Below, piece after piece: positions 4,530 to 22,210 of a stretch of 25,418 bases of DNA. The DNA lies in the IMG/VR virus record IMGVR_UViG_3300017739_002723, positions 1-25,418 of that record; one strand, written 5' to 3'. Numbering within the stretch: position 1 is the first letter of the stretch; each line of letters opens with the position of its first letter. The notes below the pieces were generated by a model that made no database searches, was not told the origin of the DNA, and saw only the letters and a program-made list of their open reading frames with translations. The DNA comes from a virus. A program made the translations under genes and the position numbers.

Positions 4530-5093
4530 ATGAAGTTTAACATTTTTACTGCTATTTTTTTAGCAGTCTTTTTTTCGACCAGTGCTTTTGCACAAACAAC
4601 GTCGAATGTAAATACAACAACAAATAGCACTAGCAACATAGATACTGAGGCAAGCTCACGTACTATTGTTATATCCCCACCTCCATCTGCGATTTCGCCT
4701 GGTGTTGGCTCGTCTTCTTCTGACCTATGTACAGTAGGCGTTTCTGGAGCAGTTCAGACACAGATTTTAGGCATTTCTACTGGCGAAACGGTACGCGATG
4801 AAAATTGTGAACGATTAAAGATATCTAAAACCCTTTATGATATGGGCATGAAAGTTGCTGCTGTTTCTGTGCTTTGCCAAGACAGGAGAGTATATGATGC
4901 TATGGAAATGGCAGGAACTCCTTGTCCCTACTTAGGACAAATTGGAGATAAGGCAACTGATGGTTGGTCTGATAATCCTAGTCGTATACCACCTGTTGTT
5001 GAAATGGAGACAAAGAAAGATGTTCAAAAACGTAATGCAGCGACTGCTGCTGGCGGTATTTCTCTCGGTCTGTTATTACTCTTCCTCCTCTAA
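4530..5093 (+). CDS. Secreted protein of unknown function with C-terminal hydrophobic segment
   Basis: This 187-residue protein starts with a clear Sec signal peptide (MKFNIF..., hydrophobic core, cleavage expected after A-F-A at about 19-21). A Thr/Asn/Ser-rich stretch follows (about 22-45), then a Pro/Ser-rich stretch, a central domain with four Cys (C67, C93, C115, C131 approximately) that could form disulfides, and a C-terminal hydrophobic end, GISLGLLLLFLL, likely a membrane anchor. The start is supported by GGAGAG shortly upstream. The last 74 nt overlap the next gene, whose signal peptide is encoded in another frame there. It may be an envelope or lysis accessory protein or a minor virion protein. 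I do not recognise the family. Confidence 0.75.
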   Translation: MKFNIFTAIFLAVFFSTSAFAQTTSNVNTTTNSTSNIDTEASSRTIVISPPPSAISPGVGSSSSDLCTVGVSGAVQTQILGISTGETVRDENCERLKISKTLYDMGMKVAAVSVLCQDRRVYDAMEMAGTPCPYLGQIGDKATDGWSDNPSRIPPVVEMETKKDVQKRNAATAAGGISLGLLLLFLL

Positions 5094-7071
5094 CGCTGAA
5101 ACTCAAGTAACTAATCCAGGACATAGTACTGTGCGCGACGATTCTTTTGTCGAAGTGCCTCTCCAATTCGTATTTCCTTTTTTTGGGGAAGAATTTTCTA
5201 CTAGTTATATGTTTACAAATGGTGTTGTCGGGTTCCAAGATCCTACACAACAAGGTGTGCAGTCGCACTGGTGTTGTCAAGGCAGGGATTTAGAAGCACT
5301 CGCAGAAGCAGGAGTAGATATTAGTCAGTATTCTTTTGTTATCGCACCTCTTTGGACTGACCTCATTGATCTACGTGTCGATGCTGATGGCGATGGTCAA
5401 GTAGATAGCGGTTTATTTACAGACGGTGATAGCACGCAAATGACTTATATTTGGAGAAACCTAGCTGAATATCGTAATGCTACTAAGCTAAATACTTTTG
5501 AATTACAAATCAAACCTGACGGAACCTATGACATAGATTATACAGGTATCGATATTATAAATCACGCAATTACCTCTGGAGTAGCTGGTGACTTAACAGG
5601 CGCTCACTTGTTAGCCGATCCATCAACAGCAGAAGGATTCACTCAGTATTTTTATTCAAGTGGTTTTACAGGTGTTTTAAATGGGTACAATAATAACTTA
5701 GAAATATTGTGTGTAACTAACCCTCTGTATGATCCTCAGTGTCCTGGCTACGCAGCTGCCTATGCTCAGTATCTATTTGAGCAACAATGTTCTGCAAACC
5801 CTTTGTACGATTCGACTTGTTCAGGATATGCAAACGCTTATTATGAGCAACAATGTACCCTTAATCCGTTGTATGATAGCGGTTGTTCTGGCTATACTCA
5901 AGCATTCTATAATCAACAATGCTCTTTAGATCCTTTATATGATTCTGGTTGTCCTGGCTATGCTCAGGCCTATTTAGATCAACAATGCTCTTTAGACCCT
6001 TTATATGATACTTCTTGCTATGGTTATGCTCAGGCCTATTTAGATCAACAGTGTTCTTTAGACCCTTTATATGATATCTCTTGTCCTGGATATGACACGG
6101 CTTATTTTAATCAACAGTGTACCTTAGATGCTACTTATAATCCACAGTGTCCAGATTATTACATGGCTATGTGCGAAGAAGATCCGCTTTATGATATGGG
6201 CTGTATTGGTTATGATACTGCTAATTTTGAGTATCAGTGCTCACTAGATTCTCAATATGATCAAAATTGTGTTGGTTACGTAAACCTTAGCAATGACGGA
6301 GATTTTATTGAAATTTTTGATCCAGTTATTGAGGATATTTTAGAAGAAGAGTATAATGAAAATAATTACATAACTGAACAAACTGTCCCAAGTTTTGTTA
6401 CTGAGTTCTTTGAAGAAGCTTTTGATGTTGATATAATATATTCAGAAAGAGATACTTTTGAAGAGGCTCTTGAGCTTGATTTAGAGTCTGAACTATCAGA
6501 GCTTGATGAAAATTCTTTTGAAAGAGAAGTTTTAGAAGAAGAGCCAGAACTTACTGAAGATGTTGAAGATCCTAGGGGGGATCAAATTCCAGAGAACGAT
6601 GACATAACGGGAGAAAGTGATGCTGCTGAAACGAATGATGGACAAGCAAAAACAGAGGATGACATCGAAAACGAAATCACATCGTTGGAGAAGACCGCTG
6701 ACAGCGAAGGGAAGTCAGAGCAAATGGAGAAGCCAGAGACAAAGGTACAAGAGTCCAGTAGTGATGTTCGGCCCGACGCGGATAGTTCAAGAAGAAATAA
6801 GTTAAAAATGCTTATTGCGGCTAAAGCTAATCAAGCTACTAAAGAACTTGAAGAAGCCGTTACATTAGAACAACAGATGAACATCCAAAAAAGAATTCTA
6901 GCACTTATTAGCTTTGTGCCAGACTTTAAGGATGAATATACAGAGAAAGAAGTAACTCAGGTGAATTTTTATCCCCCAAAACCTGTGGTTGATCATGCGT
7001 ATGCACGCTGGTTTTTAAATGATCCAACTTTTGGCGCGATGGAGGATTTACAATATCCTAGTTTGAGATAG
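5020..7071 (+). CDS. Large secreted protein: NIDO-like N-terminal domain, nine Cys repeats, acidic stalk
   Basis: The ATG at 5020 is preferred to the longer frame from 4942 because it begins a good signal peptide (MFKNVMQRLLLAVFLSV..., cleavage near S-N-A) with GGAG 10 nt upstream. The 683-residue protein has four parts. Residues 28-230 resemble the nidogen/NIDO-type fold (F-F-G-x-x-F near the start, then F-V-I-A-P-L-W-T-D, a Y-I-W-R-N-L strand, F-E-L-Q-I and Y-D-I-D-Y-T-G). Residues 231-420 contain nine tandem repeats of mostly 22 residues, each like C-S-L-D-P-L-Y-D-x-x-C-P-G-Y-A-x-A-Y-x-x-Q-Q. Residues 430-600 form a Glu/Asp-rich stalk. The C-terminal 80 residues are basic and helical, then end YPSLR. 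It may be a virion surface, adhesion or envelope protein. Paired Cys in each repeat suggest a disulfide-braced rod outside the cytoplasm. Confidence 0.75.
   Translation: MFKNVMQRLLLAVFLSVCYYSSSSNAETQVTNPGHSTVRDDSFVEVPLQFVFPFFGEEFSTSYMFTNGVVGFQDPTQQGVQSHWCCQGRDLEALAEAGVDISQYSFVIAPLWTDLIDLRVDADGDGQVDSGLFTDGDSTQMTYIWRNLAEYRNATKLNTFELQIKPDGTYDIDYTGIDIINHAITSGVAGDLTGAHLLADPSTAEGFTQYFYSSGFTGVLNGYNNNLEILCVTNPLYDPQCPGYAAAYAQYLFEQQCSANPLYDSTCSGYANAYYEQQCTLNPLYDSGCSGYTQAFYNQQCSLDPLYDSGCPGYAQAYLDQQCSLDPLYDTSCYGYAQAYLDQQCSLDPLYDISCPGYDTAYFNQQCTLDATYNPQCPDYYMAMCEEDPLYDMGCIGYDTANFEYQCSLDSQYDQNCVGYVNLSNDGDFIEIFDPVIEDILEEEYNENNYITEQTVPSFVTEFFEEAFDVDIIYSERDTFEEALELDLESELSELDENSFEREVLEEEPELTEDVEDPRGDQIPENDDITGESDAAETNDGQAKTEDDIENEITSLEKTADSEGKSEQMEKPETKVQESSSDVRPDADSSRRNKLKMLIAAKANQATKELEEAVTLEQQMNIQKRILALISFVPDFKDEYTEKEVTQVNFYPPKPVVDHAYARWFLNDPTFGAMEDLQYPSLR
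5710..6291 (+). repeat. Tandem ~66-bp coding repeats (nine units)
   Basis: The units begin at Cys codons near 5710, 5788, 5854, 5920, 5986, 6052, 6118, 6172 and 6238, mostly 66 bp apart; the first gap is 78 bp and one unit is 54 bp. Each encodes C-x-x-D/N-P-L-Y-D-x-x-C-x-G-Y-x-x-A-Y. The units at 5920-6118 are close to identical at DNA level over long runs, indicating recent duplication, while outer units are diverged. Copy number probably varies among relatives. Confidence 0.85.
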
Positions 7072-13857: not shown

Positions 13858-14766
13858 ATGAAAATATTACTCACTGGGGGGAGTGGGTTTATTGGTAAAT
13901 ATTTAACACCAGAACTTTCTCAACACGAAGTGTATCATCTCAAGTCTGATTTAAGAGATTATGATGCTGTTCGGGAGGAAGTTCTGGCGTTTCAACCTAA
14001 TGTTACTGTTCATCTGGCAGCTAGAACAGAGGTTGAATCTTCTTTTTACGAACAAGTCACTTTCTCTGAAATAAATTATGTAGGATCAGTAAATCTAATC
14101 GAGGCCTGTAAGGACATTGACGATTTTCAACTTTTCTTATTTGCTTCTACTATGGAAACTTACGGCTGGCAACCTGTCTCTGATTTAGTCAGAGATAACG
14201 ATTATATTAAACCTGCAGAAGCTTTTGCTTTTAATGAAGATACTCCCCTTAACCCTAACGCTCCTTATGCTGTTGCTAAAGTTGCAGTTGAAAAATATTT
14301 AGAATATGCCACCAGAGCTTATGGATTACCTTGGTGTGCCATTAGGACTACTAACTGTTATGGTAGATGGGATAATGCCTTTTTTGTAACCGAATCTATC
14401 ATCTCTCAAATGGCAAGAAAAGATGAGTGTAATTTAGGTTATTCAGAACCTTACCGTAATTTTATATTTATAGACGATCTAATTTATTTATATACTAGGT
14501 TAATTAATAATCCCCATGCGGCTTCTGCTCTTAAAGCTTTTACTTGTGGTCCGAATAACCCTATCAAAATGAGAGACTACGCTGAGTTAATAGCAAAAAA
14601 GATGGATTTCACAGGAACAATTAATTGGGATACTAGACCTCACAGACCTGGAGAGATTTTTTACTTATCTTCTACAAATGATAAAGTTAACGTGGTATTA
14701 GACTGGAAACCTAGAGTAGAGCTAGAAGAAGGCTTGGATAAAACAATCAAGCTATGGATAACGTAA
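13858..14766 (+). CDS. NAD(P)-dependent epimerase/dehydratase (extended SDR)
   Basis: This 302-residue protein is an extended short-chain dehydrogenase. The Rossmann motif T-G-G-S-G-F-I-G is at 6-13, the active-site S/T in F-A-S-T-M-E-T-Y-G at 95-103, and the catalytic Y-x-x-x-K is Y137-K141 (PYAVAK). A downstream TTNCYG and R-N-F-I-F-I-D-D segment is typical of nucleotide-sugar epimerases and dehydratases. These enzymes interconvert UDP-, GDP- or dTDP-sugars. It heads a run of glycosyltransferase-like genes and overlaps the first by 13 nt, so it probably makes their sugar donor (inference). The exact sugar is not evident. It is somewhat short for a GalE/RmlB-type enzyme, yet all core motifs are present. 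Confidence 0.9.
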   Translation: MKILLTGGSGFIGKYLTPELSQHEVYHLKSDLRDYDAVREEVLAFQPNVTVHLAARTEVESSFYEQVTFSEINYVGSVNLIEACKDIDDFQLFLFASTMETYGWQPVSDLVRDNDYIKPAEAFAFNEDTPLNPNAPYAVAKVAVEKYLEYATRAYGLPWCAIRTTNCYGRWDNAFFVTESIISQMARKDECNLGYSEPYRNFIFIDDLIYLYTRLINNPHAASALKAFTCGPNNPIKMRDYAELIAKKMDFTGTINWDTRPHRPGEIFYLSSTNDKVNVVLDWKPRVELEEGLDKTIKLWIT

Positions 14767-15869
14767 AATTTCTTTTTGAATATGATTTGCATTTATGGGA
14801 GGAAAAATATCTCTCCACAATCAATCATAAGTTCAATAAAAAAGTCTACTGGTGGATGGTTGACTTAAATCATTCTATCTTTGATTTTTATGATAAAGAA
14901 AGTCTTTTAATTGATGTACAAAATGGAGCATATGTTGTTGTTGATCATTCTCAAGACCCTTGCTCTCAGCTCACCCTAGAGACTCTTTTTTTAAAAGAAC
15001 TTCATCACGAGTTTAAGAATCGTAATATTTCAAAAAAACAGATCATAATTATAACTCCCACTCCCAGAGGTTTGTTTTTAGATAATCCTGATCTTCCTGT
15101 AAAATACGTCTCTTTTAATAGTTTATTTGAGATTACTAAAGTATATGCTAAACAGGTATTATCTTTTGATTTTACTGTACCCCTAAAATCTCCCAAAAAA
15201 CACTTCCTCTGTTTAATGAGGCGAGACTCTCCAAATAGGCGACTAACAAATTATTTACTACATATTAAAAATATTCATCATTTTGGCTTAGTGTCGCATT
15301 TACGAATTACAGAGGGTAATCAGCTATCTCGCGGGTTACTTAAAGATGAAGCTATCACAATGTTTCATCATGATTCTTTTGATCTAAAAAGCTTTACTAA
15401 ATTTGGTTTAATGAAACACTTTTTAGGGTCTGAATACCTGATAGACAAAGGTACAGCAGCTCACTCATATCCTCTGCATCAAAAGCTTTCTCAGGATACT
15501 GTATTTGAAATAGTTAGCGAAACTGACACAGGAAAAAATTTGTTTTTAACAGAAAAAACCTTTAAAGCTATTTTAAACAAAAGCCCGTTTATTATGTTAG
15601 GCAATAGGTTTATTTTAAAATATCTTCGTCACTTAGGGTTTAAGACTTTTCACCCAATAATAAATGAAGAGTACGATACTTTATCAAACACATATAAAAG
15701 ATTTAGTGCAGCCCTATACGAAGCAGAAAAACTTTGTAACTTATCATTAGATGATTGTGAGGATAAACTTTCTACACTTAATGATATTTGCGAGTTTAAC
15801 TATAATCATTTCTTAAATACTGATTGGCATTTTGATGTTCATAAAAATATTAGTGAACTGATATGTTAG
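14754..15869 (+). CDS. Putative glycosyltransferase, TEK-motif (GT10-like) family, paralogue A
   Basis: This 371-residue protein is the first of five related genes. Its C-terminal half has F-E-I-V-S-E-T (251-257), F-L-T-E-K-T-F-K-A-I (264-273), S-P-F-I-M-L-G (277-283), L-K-Y-L-R-H-L-G-F-K-T-F (288-299) and E-E-Y-D (305-308). The E...TEK-x-x-K-x-(I/L)...PF-x-x-x-G pattern parallels the nucleotide-sugar site of alpha-1,3-fucosyltransferases (GT10) and related GT-B enzymes. The N-terminal half shares with its paralogues V-Y-W-W (31-34), V-V-V-D-H-S-Q-D-P (61-69), I-I-I-I-T-P-T-P (97-104), and F-L-C-L-M-R-R-D (151-158) followed by R-R-L-x-N-Y-L-L-H. No signal or membrane segment is evident, so it should act in the cytoplasm. 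Donor and acceptor are unknown. Confidence 0.65.
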   Translation: MDNVKFLFEYDLHLWEEKYLSTINHKFNKKVYWWMVDLNHSIFDFYDKESLLIDVQNGAYVVVDHSQDPCSQLTLETLFLKELHHEFKNRNISKKQIIIITPTPRGLFLDNPDLPVKYVSFNSLFEITKVYAKQVLSFDFTVPLKSPKKHFLCLMRRDSPNRRLTNYLLHIKNIHHFGLVSHLRITEGNQLSRGLLKDEAITMFHHDSFDLKSFTKFGLMKHFLGSEYLIDKGTAAHSYPLHQKLSQDTVFEIVSETDTGKNLFLTEKTFKAILNKSPFIMLGNRFILKYLRHLGFKTFHPIINEEYDTLSNTYKRFSAALYEAEKLCNLSLDDCEDKLSTLNDICEFNYNHFLNTDWHFDVHKNISELIC

Positions 15870-16999
15870 AGGCAACTTTTTTATCTGATAAGCCTGATGA
15901 ATATCCAGTTCTTTTACGCTCTGATGTAAAAGGAGGTTCTTTTTCCTCCAAAGTTTACTGGTGGGAGCCACACCCTTGGGGTTCAAACAATATATTTGAT
16001 TACGTTCCTAAAGAAACCTTACTGACAGAAGATTTTTTTATAATTGTAGATTGTAGTCCTGATGCTGTGTATCAAGATTTCATCGAGAGAACTTACCTTT
16101 GGACTATATTTCAATTCTTTAGAGACAATAAAATATCTCTAAAAAGATTAATTGTTTTAACACCCTCACCAGAGTACCTTTTTATGGAAAAAGAAAGAGA
16201 TTATAAACATTTATTCTTCTCTCCTTTTTGGTTTATGATTCAAAAAGCGTACTTAAAAAACGACTTTACTAATTTACCTAAAAAGAACATAACAAAAACA
16301 TATTTTACTTTAATGAGAAAAGATACTAAGTCACGATGCCTACTTAACTATATGTTACATAAAAAAGAGATCCACGACAAAGGGTTTGTAACTCATAATA
16401 GAGTAAACCCTAAAGAAATACTGGTTGATGAAGTTTCTTTATCGAGTATGCTAGAGGAGTATCCTAAGATAGACCAAAAGGTATTACTAGATAAAGGGTT
16501 GAGCAAGCATGTAATTGATGGAAATTCTATACCAACCTTTAATGATCGTATTTTTAATGATCATCAGATCAGGTATTCTGACCTTCAGTTTAATTTAACC
16601 AGTAAGACTTTTCTTGAGGTAATTGTTGAGCCTCTTAATTTAGATAGAATGTTTTTTACTGAAAAAACCTTAAAAGCCTTTTTAACTAAAAGTATTTTTA
16701 TCATGTTCAATACTCAAAATTCTTTAAAATTTTTAAGGGGATTAGGTTTCAAAACTTTTGGAGAAACATTAGATGAAAGTTATGATGAGATTAGTAATCA
16801 GTTTGATAGAGTCAGTGCTTTCGTTGACGAAATAAAAAGACTTTCTTGCTTATCTACTATTGAGCAGACAGAGCTATATATTAATAATACAGAAATAGTA
16901 GAACACAATTTTACACATTTTATTACCCAAGACTGGTCGTTTAATTTACACAATCGTATAAAAAGGCATATAGATGAAACCGTATTTCATAGCCACTAA
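15863..16999 (+). CDS. Putative glycosyltransferase, TEK-motif family, paralogue B
   Basis: This 378-residue protein overlaps paralogue A by 7 nt. It keeps the family landmarks: V-Y-W-W (31-34), I-V-L-T-P-S-P (97-103), T-L-M-R-K-D (149-154) then L-L-N-Y-M-L-H-K (160-167), E-V-I-V-E-P (252-257), F-F-T-E-K-T-L-K-A-F (264-273), F-L-R-G-L-G-F-K-T-F (290-299) and D-E-S-Y-D (304-308). The VVVDHS segment is altered to I-I-V-D-C-S-P-D, and the PF-x-x-x-G loop reads I-F-I-M-F-N, lacking the Gly. Divergence from A is large, so duplication is old and specificity has probably changed. Its last 26 nt overlap paralogue C. Confidence 0.63.
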   Translation: MLEATFLSDKPDEYPVLLRSDVKGGSFSSKVYWWEPHPWGSNNIFDYVPKETLLTEDFFIIVDCSPDAVYQDFIERTYLWTIFQFFRDNKISLKRLIVLTPSPEYLFMEKERDYKHLFFSPFWFMIQKAYLKNDFTNLPKKNITKTYFTLMRKDTKSRCLLNYMLHKKEIHDKGFVTHNRVNPKEILVDEVSLSSMLEEYPKIDQKVLLDKGLSKHVIDGNSIPTFNDRIFNDHQIRYSDLQFNLTSKTFLEVIVEPLNLDRMFFTEKTLKAFLTKSIFIMFNTQNSLKFLRGLGFKTFGETLDESYDEISNQFDRVSAFVDEIKRLSCLSTIEQTELYINNTEIVEHNFTHFITQDWSFNLHNRIKRHIDETVFHSH

Positions 17000-18095
17000 C
17001 GGCACTAAATATGAAAGTTTAGATCTTTCTTTTGATCGTAAGGTGTGGTGGTGGATACCATCAATTGATCAGTATTCTTTTTTTGATCTGGTTAACAAGA
17101 ATGAGTTCACTAATTCAATGCTTAATGAGAATGCTGTTGTAATTATAGACCACTCTCAAGACCCGATCAAACTTGAAGAGTTTGAGAGCCTGTACTACTC
17201 TCAATTCAAAACACTATTTGAAGAGCATGATATAAGCACTGATAGGATAATTGTTTTAGAGCCTTCTCCTTCCGCTCAATTTTATATGACTGTTGACTCT
17301 CCAAACTATGTCAGTGTTATAGATAAGTTTCATTTACCAAAAAAATTTACACACATTATGTTTAACAGTTTGTTTCTAAATTATTGGAGAAGATGGGAAG
17401 ATGATGAACCAAGTTTCAAAAGAGATCCTGCAAAGCATTTCTTAACACTTGCAAGACACGACAAATTTAGTAGACGTTTTATAAACTACTCTTTACATAA
17501 AAATAATTTATTTGATAAAGGTTTTGTTAGTCACGTTATGATTGATTTTGATACTGATTTGACTCACGATTATCAACTAAAAATGCTTCAGACTAGGGGC
17601 GACTTTGACACTGCACAATATTTAAAGTATGGTTTTACTAAACATATTCTTGATACTGATACTCCTGCTCATCATCCTAAAATTAGCGACTATACTAATT
17701 TAGCAAATAAGACTTGTTTTGAATTAGTACAAGACAGTTTTATTACTGATTGTTTATTGCCAACTGAGAAAGTATTCAAACCTCTTTACGGTAAAACACC
17801 TTTCTTATATGTAGGTAGCCCTTATACGTTAAAATACTTAAAAACCCTTGGATTTGAAACTTTTGATAAAATCTTTGATGAATCTTACGATACTGAATTA
17901 GTATACTATGATAGGATCGAGCTTATTATGAATAATATGCGTGCTATGTGTAGTCTATCTCTGCAAGATTGTAAAAAACGAATAAGTCTTGTAGAAGAGG
18001 TATGTGAACATAATCATAAGCACTTTTTACATATGGATAAAGGTTTTAATATTAAGAAGAGATTAGATAGTGCATTCACCAATATTTTTACATGA
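16974..18095 (+). CDS. Putative glycosyltransferase, TEK-motif family, paralogue C
   Basis: This 373-residue protein starts at the ATG at 16974, with AAAAGG upstream inside paralogue B. Landmarks are V-W-W-W (24-27), V-V-I-I-D-H-S-Q-D-P (55-64), I-V-L-E-P-S-P (93-99), H-F-L-T-L-A-R-H-D (155-163), R-R-F-I-N-Y-S-L-H-K (167-176), L-P-T-E-K-V-F-K-P-L (262-271), T-P-F-L-Y-V-G (275-281), L-K-Y-L-K-T-L-G-F-E-T-F (286-297) and D-E-S-Y-D (302-306). The K-P-L after TEK and the E in GFET are shared with paralogue D, so C and D look closest to each other. It has the full motif set and is probably active. Confidence 0.65.
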   Translation: MKPYFIATNGTKYESLDLSFDRKVWWWIPSIDQYSFFDLVNKNEFTNSMLNENAVVIIDHSQDPIKLEEFESLYYSQFKTLFEEHDISTDRIIVLEPSPSAQFYMTVDSPNYVSVIDKFHLPKKFTHIMFNSLFLNYWRRWEDDEPSFKRDPAKHFLTLARHDKFSRRFINYSLHKNNLFDKGFVSHVMIDFDTDLTHDYQLKMLQTRGDFDTAQYLKYGFTKHILDTDTPAHHPKISDYTNLANKTCFELVQDSFITDCLLPTEKVFKPLYGKTPFLYVGSPYTLKYLKTLGFETFDKIFDESYDTELVYYDRIELIMNNMRAMCSLSLQDCKKRISLVEEVCEHNHKHFLHMDKGFNIKKRLDSAFTNIFT

Positions 18096-19128
18096 GGTAA
18101 ACAACGGTATTTTTGGAGAGATAGATTTTAAATTCTCAAAAAAGGTATTTGTAGCCTCTCCTGACGGTATTTACAATAACTCGTTTTCTACCTTAAATTT
18201 TGAAGAATCTTTTTTAATTGTCGATCACTCAGACGATCCAACAAACCAATCTGTTTTTGATGAGTTTACTTTCTCAAAATTAAATATAGATGCTAATAAA
18301 GTAATTATTGTATCACCGTCTCCTGATCAGCTATTCTACCGAGATTCTGTAAGCAAATTCAAACATATATTTTGTAATGGTCACTTTGCAAAGATTAAAA
18401 ATCGATTAAGTAAGAGGTTTGATTTGGTTAGTCAGAAGAGTATTAAAAAATTATTTTTGTGCTTGAGTAGAGAAGATAAACTACACAGGAGGTTAGTGAA
18501 TTATTGTCTACATAAAAATAAATTATTTGAAAAAGGATTAATTAGTCATCAAAGGACAGAAGGTGGGCATGGATTTAATCTAGCAGATGATTTAAGATTT
18601 TTTTCTCATAGAGTAGACTTTGATCCGACTTTTTATATGCAGTATGGTCTTCGTAAACATTTTATTGATAAGGTAACTGATTCAAGTAAAATCTTAGGTA
18701 AGTCTCTTGCTGCTTATAACTTTGAAGCTTATGCTAATTTAAATAAAGAAATACTTATTGATCTCCCTGTAGAATCTTATGTATCTGATTACATTTTTAT
18801 TACTGAGAAACTTCTTAAACCGCTTGTATTTAAGACTCCATTTTTATTAATAGGCTGTCCTCTGACTCTAAAGTACCTAAGACACTTAGGTTTTGAAACT
18901 TTTGACTGTGTATTTGACGAATCCTATGACGAAGAACTTGTTCTATACGATAGGGTGCAAGGTGTTATAAGCAACTTATCACAACTATCTACTTTATCCT
19001 TGCAAGATGCTACAAAAAAATTTAGAATTACAGAAGATATATGTAACCATAATTATAATCATTTTATGAACTCTGATTGGAGTTTTAACTTACAAGAAAA
19101 AATTGAGAGAGCCATCAATGTATCCTAA
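18070..19128 (+). CDS. Putative glycosyltransferase, TEK-motif family, paralogue D (GTG start)
   Basis: This 352-residue protein uses a GTG at 18070, with AAGAAGAG upstream; no better ATG precedes the conserved part. Landmarks are L-I-V-D-H-S-D-D-P (49-57), I-I-V-S-P-S-P (79-85), L-F-L-C-L-S-R-E-D (128-136), R-R-L-V-N-Y-C-L-H-K (140-149), F-I-T-E-K-L-L-K-P-L (243-252), T-P-F-L-L-I-G (256-262), L-K-Y-L-R-H-L-G-F-E-T-F (267-278) and D-E-S-Y-D (283-287). It lacks the WW pair of A-C in the N-terminal strand and is about 20 residues shorter there. It is most like C in the C-terminal half. Confidence 0.65.
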   Translation: MHSPIFLHEVNNGIFGEIDFKFSKKVFVASPDGIYNNSFSTLNFEESFLIVDHSDDPTNQSVFDEFTFSKLNIDANKVIIVSPSPDQLFYRDSVSKFKHIFCNGHFAKIKNRLSKRFDLVSQKSIKKLFLCLSREDKLHRRLVNYCLHKNKLFEKGLISHQRTEGGHGFNLADDLRFFSHRVDFDPTFYMQYGLRKHFIDKVTDSSKILGKSLAAYNFEAYANLNKEILIDLPVESYVSDYIFITEKLLKPLVFKTPFLLIGCPLTLKYLRHLGFETFDCVFDESYDEELVLYDRVQGVISNLSQLSTLSLQDATKKFRITEDICNHNYNHFMNSDWSFNLQEKIERAINVS

Positions 19129-20221
19129 TTTTAACGGCGAATCGATGAAGTACGATCTGGATAAATATAACTTTCCAAAGTGGGCTTTAGAAAGAATTCA
19201 AAATAAATATCCTCAAGTAACAGACTTAGAAACAATTCACGAAACTGTCGACTTGAAAGATATTGGGGCTTTACAAAACTGGGTTTCTTCTGGTTGTGGA
19301 ACTGTTGAGTTTATGAAAATGTTGGATAACTTTCTTATTGAAAACATTCAACCTAGGCTTGATGTAGATTTTTTAATTCAACGTTTTGGTACTTTAAGGG
19401 TTGTAATTCCTGAACAAGAAAAGGTCGGCAGATTACTAAATTACCATCAAGGTATTTTTGTAGGTAATGGAACAGGTCTTAGAACCATATGGACACCCTT
19501 TACAAAGTGCTGGGGATCAAATACAATGCATATGCTTAACCTTGATATTAGCCGTGAAATTACAAAAAGAAGTATTGAAGAAAAATGGACACAAGAGTTT
19601 TTCAACGGTTTTTCAGAAAATCACTCATACGATATAAATCTTAGTCCGGGTTATTCTTGGCTTTTTAATCAGGAACTTATCCATGGTAACGTTAATAACG
19701 AGACAGGTGTTACTAGAGTTAGTATGGATTTACGAATTATGATTAAAGGCGGTAATTATGGACGCAAATATCCTGGTCAATATTTTAGAACTTTGTTTGA
19801 TTGGGAGGATATAAATACTGAAGTTATAAATACATCAGGTACTTTCATCACTTATGCGGGTTGGAATTCTAACTACACAAAACATTTGCCTCTTGTTTTA
19901 CAGAGAGCCTTTATGGATAGTTATCTTGAAAAGCATAATATTACTATTAACGAATACAGCTTTGAAAATGAGTATCTTGATCACATGCCTAACTTACAAT
20001 ACCTTATTGGTAAAGTTGATAACATTGTTCTATTAAGTATCTATGCTTTACCTGACGATCCTGACGACAGACAAAAAATTTATAAAAGTGCATTAGATAA
20101 CCATTGTTACTTGCATTTTTCTCAAGAAGATATTATACTTACAAATGAGAGTGATATACAAAAAATAGAAACTTACCTTACTTGGGGTGAGAGTTATAAG
20201 GAATGGAGAATTAATGTCTAA
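19118..20221 (+). CDS. 2OG-dioxygenase-fold (phytanoyl-CoA-hydroxylase-like) protein with apparent HxG in place of HxD
   Basis: The ATG at 19118 is chosen over a TTG at 19103, with GAGAGAG upstream; this gives 367 residues. The middle region follows the phytanoyl-CoA/ectoine-hydroxylase layout: N-Y-H-Q-G (108-112), a T-I-W-T-P-F segment (123-128), G-S-N-T-M-H (133-138), P-G-Y-S-W-L-F-N (177-184), H189 in E-L-I-H-G-N-V, and T-R-V-S (199-202) with the likely 2OG-binding Arg. In this fold the first motif is usually H-x-D; here it reads H110-Q-G112, so the carboxylate ligand is missing. That is also seen in 2OG halogenases, where a halide takes its place. It may be an inactive relative, a halogenase-type enzyme, or use another ligand. 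It lies among glycosyltransferase-like genes, so a sugar or nucleotide-sugar substrate is possible. Confidence 0.55.
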   Translation: MYPNFNGESMKYDLDKYNFPKWALERIQNKYPQVTDLETIHETVDLKDIGALQNWVSSGCGTVEFMKMLDNFLIENIQPRLDVDFLIQRFGTLRVVIPEQEKVGRLLNYHQGIFVGNGTGLRTIWTPFTKCWGSNTMHMLNLDISREITKRSIEEKWTQEFFNGFSENHSYDINLSPGYSWLFNQELIHGNVNNETGVTRVSMDLRIMIKGGNYGRKYPGQYFRTLFDWEDINTEVINTSGTFITYAGWNSNYTKHLPLVLQRAFMDSYLEKHNITINEYSFENEYLDHMPNLQYLIGKVDNIVLLSIYALPDDPDDRQKIYKSALDNHCYLHFSQEDIILTNESDIQKIETYLTWGESYKEWRINV

Positions 20222-20555
20222 CGTTTTTTCTAATGCATCCTTCGCCGTTCTTTCGGTGATGAAAAGCCTTGATGCATCTAATACTAAAGTGTACAGAGGA
20301 TCTACTGTTTTCGTTCAAAGAAAGCCCGAGGCAGATTTCGGCAATATTACTGTTATTTCTTACAGTGATGATAGATTTGGTACAGATCACACACTACGAG
20401 TTGAAGACTTTGACCAACAGGCTGCTTTTGAAGCCAATGTTGTACCAAAAATTGCCACTGACATTAAGTCGATGATAAGTGATAGGCCTGTTGTTATTGC
20501 TAATAGTAACATCAGTGCTAACTCTTATACTATGAGTGGAACCGCTGTCTCATAG
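20214..20555 (+). CDS. Unknown protein (113 residues), Ser/Val-rich, possibly structural
   Basis: The ATG at 20214 follows a GGAG at 20205-20208 (a GTG at 20187 is in frame but less well placed) and overlaps the previous gene by 8 nt. The product is soluble and beta-rich (S-V-M-K-S-L near the start, V-Y-R-G-S-T-V-F-V-Q-R, I-T-V-I-S-Y), with an Asn/Ser/Thr-rich end. It has no Cys, no membrane segment and no recognised motif. It lies between two enzyme-like genes of the sugar cluster, so it might be the acceptor protein that is modified; this is only a guess from position. Confidence 0.6.
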   Translation: MSNVFSNASFAVLSVMKSLDASNTKVYRGSTVFVQRKPEADFGNITVISYSDDRFGTDHTLRVEDFDQQAAFEANVVPKIATDIKSMISDRPVVIANSNISANSYTMSGTAVS

Positions 20556-21513
20556 GATCGTAACAAATCAGATTAGTCAATCTGAAATGAACATTATTAC
20601 TCAAAAAACAGTAGACTTTTTGTCTAATAGGCTTTTAGGTAATTACAAACTAATTGATTTTACGTGGTTTAATCTATACGATAAAAGTATAGATTATGTT
20701 GAAGAGGATTATGTGGTAGCAGTAGATGTAGCTGATCCTCCCTACTTTCTTAATGAAAAATTAAAATGGATAGACAGGATTAAAAAACCTGTTATTTTTG
20801 TTGGTCCTCCGACTAATGAGTTTCCTTGTGTTGTTCCTTTTTTGGCTTGGCAACGCTTTAGACCTCAAAATCCCTTATCAAAACTTTCTCGTGATAAATT
20901 CTTTGTCTCTTTTAACAGAAAGCCCCACCCTCATAGACAGTTTTACTTTGATAACCTATCAAAATTTGGTTTAAAAGATAAAGGCTTAATAACTTATCAC
21001 TCTGAGAAACCCATGCACAAAATTCATTCACTCGACTTAGATGATGATATAGTAGAACTACAGAGATTAGCTCAAATCGTTGACGAAAAGCAACTAAATT
21101 CTCTTTTTGAGATTGTATGTGAAACCTCACCTTCTGACAATCATATGTTTCTAACTGAAAAATTCAATAAATGTATTGCTACTGAAACGCCTTTTTTCCT
21201 AGCTGGCAATAGAAACTCATTAAGCATACTAAAAAATTATTATGGATTTTACCCTTTTGGTCCAGACGACTCTTATGACTCGTTACCAACTTACAGAGAA
21301 AGAGTATTGAAAATGTTATCTACCGCAGAATTGTTTTTCTCTTATCCAATGAAATCAGTTTTTGACAACGCAAAGAAAAATGCTTATCATCTCTTTAATG
21401 ATTTCGATTCTATTCACGACAGAATCGTAGACAAAAATATAGAAAAGAGTATGAGATATGTTAAAAACTGCATCACGAATGGCTCTGCTTTCGCAGATAG
21501 TGTACGAAGATGA
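20536..21513 (+). CDS. Putative glycosyltransferase, TEK-motif family, divergent paralogue E
   Basis: The longest frame uses GTG at 20536 (325 residues); an ATG at 20587 would give 308 and keeps all motifs. This is the most divergent of the five: V-V-A-V-D-V-A-D-P-P (60-69), V-I-F-V-G-P-P (86-92), K-F-F-V-S-F-N-R-K-P (121-130), L-F-E-I-V-C-E-T (190-197), F-L-T-E-K-F-N-K-C-I (205-214), T-P-F-F-L-A-G (217-223), Y-Y-G-F-Y-P-F (235-241) and D-D-S-Y-D-S-L (244-250). It keeps E-T...TEK...PF-x-x-x-G. It is shorter at the N-terminus and separated from A-D by two unrelated genes, so it may transfer a different sugar or act on a different acceptor. Confidence 0.63.
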   Translation: MEPLSHRIVTNQISQSEMNIITQKTVDFLSNRLLGNYKLIDFTWFNLYDKSIDYVEEDYVVAVDVADPPYFLNEKLKWIDRIKKPVIFVGPPTNEFPCVVPFLAWQRFRPQNPLSKLSRDKFFVSFNRKPHPHRQFYFDNLSKFGLKDKGLITYHSEKPMHKIHSLDLDDDIVELQRLAQIVDEKQLNSLFEIVCETSPSDNHMFLTEKFNKCIATETPFFLAGNRNSLSILKNYYGFYPFGPDDSYDSLPTYRERVLKMLSTAELFFSYPMKSVFDNAKKNAYHLFNDFDSIHDRIVDKNIEKSMRYVKNCITNGSAFADSVRR

Positions 21514-22210
21514 GCACACAATAAATACGAAACTTCTTAAGATGGGTCTGCCAGACTGGGCCTGGTTTGAGCGTGACGGAACTCAGGGTATGATTGTGAA
21601 TAACAATGAAGAAATCATTATATGCTTCAGAGGCACTGAGCCAGATCAAATGTCAGACGTGTTAGCAGACCTCAAGGCTTGGCCAAAACGTAGCCAAGAG
21701 AGAGGCTTCGTGCATTTTGGTTTTGCACAAGCGCTTGATAAGGTATATGATGAAATGAGTACTTATCTTGAAAGGCTATCCCTAGGAGCGCCCGAAGGTA
21801 TCAAAGTCATCTGTACAGGTCATTCATTAGGTGCTGCTCTTGCTACTCTGTTTGCAGCTAGGGAAGACGCTCATGAGTTATATACTTTTGGATCACCAAG
21901 AGTAGGCACGCGATCTTTTTGTAAAGAGATCAAAAAAGATGGAGTTAAGCATTACAGGTTCGTAAATAATAACGATATCGTAACTAGTGTCCCCTTTGCT
22001 CTTATGGGTTTTCGTCATAGCGGTGATTTAGTTTATGTTAATCACTACGGCAATATCCGTAAAATGACTTTCTGGCAGAGATTTAAAGATAAACTTAGAG
22101 GCAGATTTGCTGCATGGAGAAAAAAACAAGCATTCGATGGAGTAAGAGATCACGACATCAATTCTTATTATAAAAAGATAAACAATGTCTGTATACAGAG
22201 CAAGGACTAA
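21458..22210 (+). CDS. Class 3 lipase-like alpha/beta hydrolase
   Basis: This 250-residue protein matches fungal-type class 3 lipases: I-I-I-C-F-R-G-T-E (53-61, oxyanion region), nucleophile elbow V-I-C-T-G-H-S-L-G-A-A (117-127, Ser123), L-Y-T-F-G-S-P-R-V-G (141-150), Y-R-F-V-N-N-N-D-I-V-T-S-V-P (166-179, Asp173) and H232 near V-R-D-H-D. The catalytic triad Ser123-Asp173-His232 is complete. There is no signal peptide, so it acts inside the cell or is carried in the virion. It could hydrolyse membrane lipids during lysis or entry. The ATG at 21458 overlaps paralogue E by 56 nt. A basic insertion (FKDKLRGRFAAWRKKQ) lies before the His. Confidence 0.88.
   Translation: MLKTASRMALLSQIVYEDEHTINTKLLKMGLPDWAWFERDGTQGMIVNNNEEIIICFRGTEPDQMSDVLADLKAWPKRSQERGFVHFGFAQALDKVYDEMSTYLERLSLGAPEGIKVICTGHSLGAALATLFAAREDAHELYTFGSPRVGTRSFCKEIKKDGVKHYRFVNNNDIVTSVPFALMGFRHSGDLVYVNHYGNIRKMTFWQRFKDKLRGRFAAWRKKQAFDGVRDHDINSYYKKINNVCIQSKD

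Follow-up and report, generated by a model that had tools for sequence, protein, structure and literature searches.

The window analysed here is the entire virus record IMGVR_UViG_3300017739_002723 (25,418 bases, positions 1 to 25,418), which carries five strongly diverged paralogous genes, A to E, that are predicted to encode glycosyltransferases. The record itself is probably a fragment of a larger genome, and the results cover this part of an incomplete virus genome. Related contigs and a published parallel in pelagimyophages suggest a virus of marine bacteria. The genes of interest, from the epimerase ahead of A to the lipase behind E, all lie on the + strand.

Gene organization of the locus

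The locus opens with an NAD-dependent nucleotide-sugar epimerase/dehydratase of the SDR family (13858-14766), which matches Pfam Epimerase (E 1.9e-37) and phrog_540, nucleotide-sugar epimerase (E 1.3e-53); GxxGxxG and YxxxK motifs are seen by eye, and the same gene lies upstream of the glycosyltransferase slot in related contigs. Paralogues A (14754-15869), B (15863-16999), C (16974-18095) and D (18070-19128) follow consecutively, with overlaps of 7 nucleotides between A and B and 26 nucleotides at each of the B/C and C/D junctions. E (20536-21513) lies further on and probably starts at an ATG at about 20587 rather than at 20536, because its orthologues indicate so. All five frames are open (325-378 codons each). 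An epimerase followed by four overlapping copies had been described in an earlier, sequence-only reading of this DNA, and both features are borne out. It overlooked two open reading frames (ORFs) between D and E, both of which are syntenic in relatives. The first encodes a fusion of a SpoChoClust_2 2-oxoglutarate (2OG)-Fe(II) oxygenase with a SpoChoClust_1/LIC12192 protein (19103-20221), which may in fact begin at the ATG at 19118. The second is a small conserved ORF (20187-20555), to which 37-57% identical homologues occupy the corresponding position in most related contigs; in contig L191 it is also duplicated downstream of E. A Pfam search with the small ORF gave no match.

A divergent glycosyltransferase family

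Paralogues A-D can be aligned end to end at 29-35% identity, and all pairs are linked by BLASTP E values of 1e-40 to 1e-71 (A against B, C and D: approximately 350 residues, E 1e-49 to 1e-52). E reaches A-D at 1e-5 to 7e-12, and at 1e-9 in a separate search, and is a real but distant family member; its orthologues in contigs L011 and L047 are 51-54% identical to it. The observation of five divergent paralogues in one phage was thus confirmed. The ordered motif set described for all five is present in A-D, whereas E carries a weaker form of it in the C-terminal half (LSILKNYYGFYPF and DDSYD) and has VDVADPP, GPPT and FNRKPHPHR in place of the exact N-terminal motifs. The donor motif of A, read from its alignment with the modelled homologue D, is SET...TEKTFK...PFIMLG. 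Nine positions (R140, E246, K247, K250, G274, Y286, D287, R295 and N328 in D numbering) are unchanged in 15 of 15 proteins of the lineage. Searches of Pfam, PHROGs, NCBIfam and PDB sequences gave no usable family name for A-E or for 56 of their relatives. A PHROG match of B to "DNA binding protein" (E 0.006) was set aside as a single weak match that no other member supports.

AlphaFold2 models of D (82-row alignment; pLDDT 85.4, pTM 0.84) and E (53-row alignment; pLDDT 86.9, pTM 0.85) both have a GT-B fold of two Rossmann-like domains, and the structures that they match best are GT-B transferases, aligned across approximately 250 residues. The matches of D (VIA) include T4 BGT at Z 11.0 and the GT10 enzyme FucT at Z 10.7, and those of E include a bacterial glucosyltransferase at Z 12.4, GT10 FucT at Z 12.0 and T4 AGT/BGT at Z 10-11. 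Nearly all top matches of both models are nucleotide-sugar transferases, and the lower-ranked ones are nearly all glycosyltransferases or close GT-B enzymes. These models agree with the glycosyltransferase identity proposed from sequence, and they support the assignment of A-E to an unnamed GT-B glycosyltransferase family with predicted activity. Against predicted viral structures, Foldseek returned 24 matches at E<0.001, of which 21 are labelled "Uncharacterized protein" (20 from uncultured Caudovirales phages and one from a mimivirus); the other three are a UDP-glucose/GDP-mannose dehydrogenase from an uncultured Caudovirales phage and two giant-virus glycosyltransferases.

The E...TEK...G pattern had been likened to the donor site of CAZy family GT10. 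When a profile of 82 family members was compared with 15 Pseudomonadota GT10 proteins, the E...TEK...P...G stretch matched with a score of 45 (probability 74.5%, E 2.7e-5, 58 columns); 100 column shuffles scored at most 19, and GT90 scored 19. Beyond this stretch the profile comparison detected no GT10 similarity, and a full-length match was not obtained. The donor site is therefore described here as GT10-like, with a probable distant kinship to GT10. GT90 (PF05686), the top family in the Foldseek search of the PDB, was rejected, as its hhalign probability was 0.5%, its score of 19 lies in the shuffle range and there is no Pfam match.

Distribution of the family

A scan of viral contigs with the core FDESYDE found 128 stretches, 113 of which encode relatives. 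Members are commonly tandem or clustered, with two to five per locus in many viral contigs, and a T4-type portal gene is present in 8 of 18 contigs searched. Among 112 sampled neighbour genes of relatives there are 19 radical SAM, 10 SPASM and 9 GDP-mannose-dehydratase/epimerase genes, together with five each of DegT aminotransferases, carbamoyltransferases and UDP-Glc/GDP-Man dehydrogenases; this is a sample in which some contigs are related, and the counts are descriptive, not statistical. In contig L021 (6939-9863; also in L024 and L026) a single protein of 974 aa joins a family member to a B12-binding radical SAM protein, and the locus has three further tandem members.

In cellular genomes the family is rare. 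Two of 398 Pseudomonadota genomes carry any member. A scan of genome contigs found one metagenome-assembled genome (MAG) with members, the Caulobacteraceae MAG G002, which has five dispersed ones (C99, C31, C91, C152 and C161); at least two of these stand among genes that look bacterial (purF, transporters). In the order of this MAG, 2 of 150 genomes carry one member and most carry none. These cellular copies rule out a phage-only family. Searches of cultured phages by tblastn, with four family members and with the fusion protein as queries, found no relative; near records may be left out of these searches. The family is widespread in uncultured, often T4-like viral contigs.

Evolution of the array

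Related contigs have the gene order epimerase, glycosyltransferase (slot 1), oxygenase fusion, small ORF, E, in some cases another glycosyltransferase, lipase and Fpg. Relatives in which the whole of slot 1 is visible have one glycosyltransferase there, compared with four (A-D) in the window. The post-E glycosyltransferase is present in five contigs and absent from the window, L191, L195 and L196, and E is duplicated in L194. Mean pairwise identity in the glycosyltransferase slots is 51% (slot 1), 45% (post-E) and 58% (E), as against 76% for the epimerase, 78% for the fusion, 81% for the lipase and 83% for Fpg. Among the glycosyltransferases of this lineage the N-terminal half, presumed to be the acceptor side, is less conserved than the presumed donor side in the C-terminal half (33% versus 43% overall, 51% versus 63% in slot 1). 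Related contigs also encode an HldE/rfaE-like nucleotidyltransferase and a mannose-6-phosphate isomerase.

C and D form a sister pair (95/95 in one analysis, 94/94 in another), B leans to the post-E clade (83/93), with a weak grouping with relatives' post-E genes, and A has no resolved placement. Because only C and D are sisters and B lies near the post-E clade, the array combines local duplication with older paralogues, and a recent duplication of all of A-D inside this virus is ruled out. An origin of the copies within the phage lineage, which the sequence-only reading had raised as a question, is therefore supported in part: C and D are sisters, and B groups with genes of another slot. Copy-number turnover and fast divergence of the glycosyltransferase slots are consistent with alternative or diversifying uses of the copies.

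Two contigs of the lineage carry apparent bacterial-type transporter parts, namely a permease of the TctA family and PnrA-like (Bmp) substrate-binding proteins, at L207 5702-7851 (G532) and L210 12599-13663 (G533).

The oxygenase fusion

The fusion between D and E matches TIGR04324 (SpoChoClust_2; 76.4 bits, E 2.4e-21, under the curated cut-off of 150 bits) and TIGR04323 (SpoChoClust_1/LIC12192; E 1.1e-13, also under its curated cut-off), so that its oxygenase half is a diverged relative of TIGR04324. Several bacteria encode the two halves as separate adjacent genes, and the phage protein is therefore a natural fusion. An HQG...H...R iron site is present in the fusion of the window, L010, L011, L047, L191 and L193-L197, within an almost invariant stretch. 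HQG occurs in every phage copy checked, in contrast to HxD/HxE...H in 33 of 33 aligned cellular rows (some from overlapping loci); the distal His and the Arg are conserved throughout the aligned phage and cellular rows. The phage fusion thus departs from the HxD/E...H triad of TIGR04324-type proteins, with glycine at the aspartate position, and agrees with the HxA/G...H site of Fe(II)/2OG halogenases. Replacement of the carboxylate residue by Ala or Gly typically marks Fe/2OG halogenases, a group that includes AdeV, which acts on a nucleotide (PMC8407142), and the HxA/G rule is stated also in PMC10947486. However, the hydroxylase AspH likewise has HxG...H (PMC10947486), and halogenation is for this reason only a hypothesis; the iron site suggests a halogenase-like or an AspH-like enzyme.

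Proposed function and alternative explanations

Homology, a GT-B fold, donor-site resemblance, sugar-gene context, fast divergence and variable copy number together favour a reading in which A-E, the epimerase and the oxygenase fusion probably form a glycan-modification island of soluble GT-B enzymes with a GT10-like donor pocket, a surface-exposed acceptor, and copies that differ and are quickly turned over. Sugar nucleotides would be made or tailored by phage enzymes (epimerase and oxygenase, and in relatives the rfaE-like nucleotidyltransferase and mannose-6-phosphate isomerase) together with host enzymes. A-E would bind these donors through a GT10-like pocket (R...E...TEK...K...G), followed by a family-specific DESYD...R...N signature, and would transfer the tailored sugars to acceptors, so that the island may build or decorate one or more glycans with unusual sugars. 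The likeliest acceptor would be a surface-exposed structure, either the host envelope polysaccharide during infection or virion proteins; DNA is less favoured, since the genes are several, vary in copy number and diverge fast. Differences between the copies probably lie in the acceptor and perhaps also in the donor, and rapid gain, loss and diversification of copies may allow the virus to keep pace with defences, receptors or competing phages. Published pelagimyophages have very similar, hypervariable islands in which glycosyltransferases occur together with rfaE and radical-SAM cassettes; the authors interpret these as regions of host recognition and O-chain modification (PMC7029224).

Several points weigh against this reading. 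What the enzymes do, which sugar they transfer to which acceptor and why this is selected are all inferred. Z values near 11 place the predicted fold, not the activity; every Foldseek match to the PDB was above E 0.01, and therefore no solved structure is a close relative. No match to a flippase, polymerase or polyprenyl-phosphate transferase, which would point to polysaccharide synthesis, was found within the window. Fast divergence of the glycosyltransferases could reflect relaxed constraint instead, although the donor-site residues are conserved.

Among the alternatives, a module that glycosylates virion proteins (tail fibres or capsid) and not host glycans is a possible but less probable arrangement. 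The glycosyltransferases are soluble and cytoplasmic, with no obvious membrane segments, the window has no gene for polysaccharide export or polymerisation, and the published pelagimyophage glycosyltransferase island lies with tail-fibre genes (PMC7029224); however, no tail-fibre gene was identified adjoining the array in the window, and the pelagimyophage authors prefer host O-chain modification (PMC7029224). Glycosylation of hypermodified bases in phage DNA, as T4 AGT/BGT glucosylate hydroxymethylcytosine, is unlikely. T4 BGT and AGT are among the nearest folds of D and E, but at these Z values all GT-B enzymes tie; sugar-modified phage DNA is known (e.g. PMC12838424) and the contigs of relatives are often T4-like, yet five fast-diverging copies of variable number fit a single acceptor poorly. 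The sequence-only reading had offered hypermodified DNA as one target, for which no supporting gene, such as one for base hydroxymethylation, was found within the window of this incomplete genome. For their comparable phages, the pelagimyophage authors argue against a restriction-driven role, restriction-modification being present in just one of >100 SAR11 genomes (PMC7029224).

A reading in which some copies have decayed, or are pseudo-enzymes retained as material for recombination, is quite unlikely. B has N in place of the glycine of PFxxxG, C has D instead of E at the conserved acidic position (QDS), and the E orthologue of L010 is interrupted in a record that also has runs of unknown bases; on the other side, the five frames are open, A-D all retain R140, E246 and K247, E keeps its TEK motif and HR arginine, and C and D have diverged without stops. 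Membership of A-E in CAZy family GT10 (fucosyltransferases) is very improbable: the local donor-stretch match and fold Z values of 10.7-12.0 speak for it, but it fails because similarity is confined to those 58 columns, with the conserved DESYD...R...N block mostly outside, and because no member reaches PF00852, which matched 0 of 56 family members. The same model matches in 15 of 249 Pseudomonadota genomes; a six-frame PF00852 search of the window was empty, as were the control genomes in that search.

Significance of the proposed glycan-modification island

Dozens of large uncultured phages carry the family, often as tandem copies and beside radical-SAM and rare-sugar genes, yet it is unnamed in the libraries searched; defining it to CAZy standard, with one structure solved, would give an annotation to many unnamed phage proteins together. 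With its copy-number turnover and fast divergence it offers a concrete case in which to ask what phage glycan islands target, and the HQG oxygenase that lies among the copies gives a clean and testable lead to unusual viral sugar chemistry. In a more speculative version, which is rather improbable, the phage-specific HQG Fe(II)/2OG enzyme would halogenate or oxidatively tailor a sugar that rapidly duplicated glycosyltransferases of a new CAZy family place on varied acceptors; if true, a virus would have its own pathway to surface sugars that are halogenated or hyper-tailored.

Other features of the window

Directly downstream of E lies a class 3 lipase (21458-22210; Pfam Lipase_3, E 3.6e-26), which is syntenic in most related contigs and perhaps stands outside the glycan module. 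A short class II tRNA-synthetase-like protein (1681-2520; Pfam tRNA-synt_2, 279 aa) adjoins a tRNA-Asn gene (2527-2611) and is possibly a truncated asparaginyl-tRNA synthetase or an asparagine-synthetase-type paralogue. A 709-aa protein (4942-7071), for which a Pfam search gave no match, has cysteine-rich repeats of approximately 22 aa, e.g. QQCSLDPLYDSGCPGYAQAYLD, followed by an acidic stretch; the repeats are encoded by a 66-bp tandem repeat at 5883-6116.

Comparison with known systems

T4 BGT and AGT are phage GT-B enzymes that have an overall fold in common with the D and E models (Z 10-11), at 8-14% identity in the alignments listed; unlike them, the A-E family has sugar-biosynthesis neighbours and multi-copy, fast-diverging arrays. 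H. pylori FucT of GT10 (PDB 2NZW/2NZX/2NZY) likewise has the common GT-B fold (Z 10.7 to D, 12.0 to E), and its donor stretch E-N/T...TEK...P...G matches that of the A-E family, which differs in having no PF00852 or full-length profile match and in its extra conserved DESYD...R...N block. The phage fusion holds both proteins of the sporadic carbohydrate cluster, TIGR04324 and TIGR04323, in the order in which they often stand side by side in bacteria; the phage version differs in being one chain, in scoring under both cut-offs and in the change of the iron-site aspartate to glycine. GT8 is reported as the most represented glycosyltransferase family in the pelagimyophage islands (PMC7029224), whereas the A-E family is unnamed by the libraries searched. 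Like the window, these islands of T4-like marine phages are hypervariable and contain several glycosyltransferases and sugar-activation genes.

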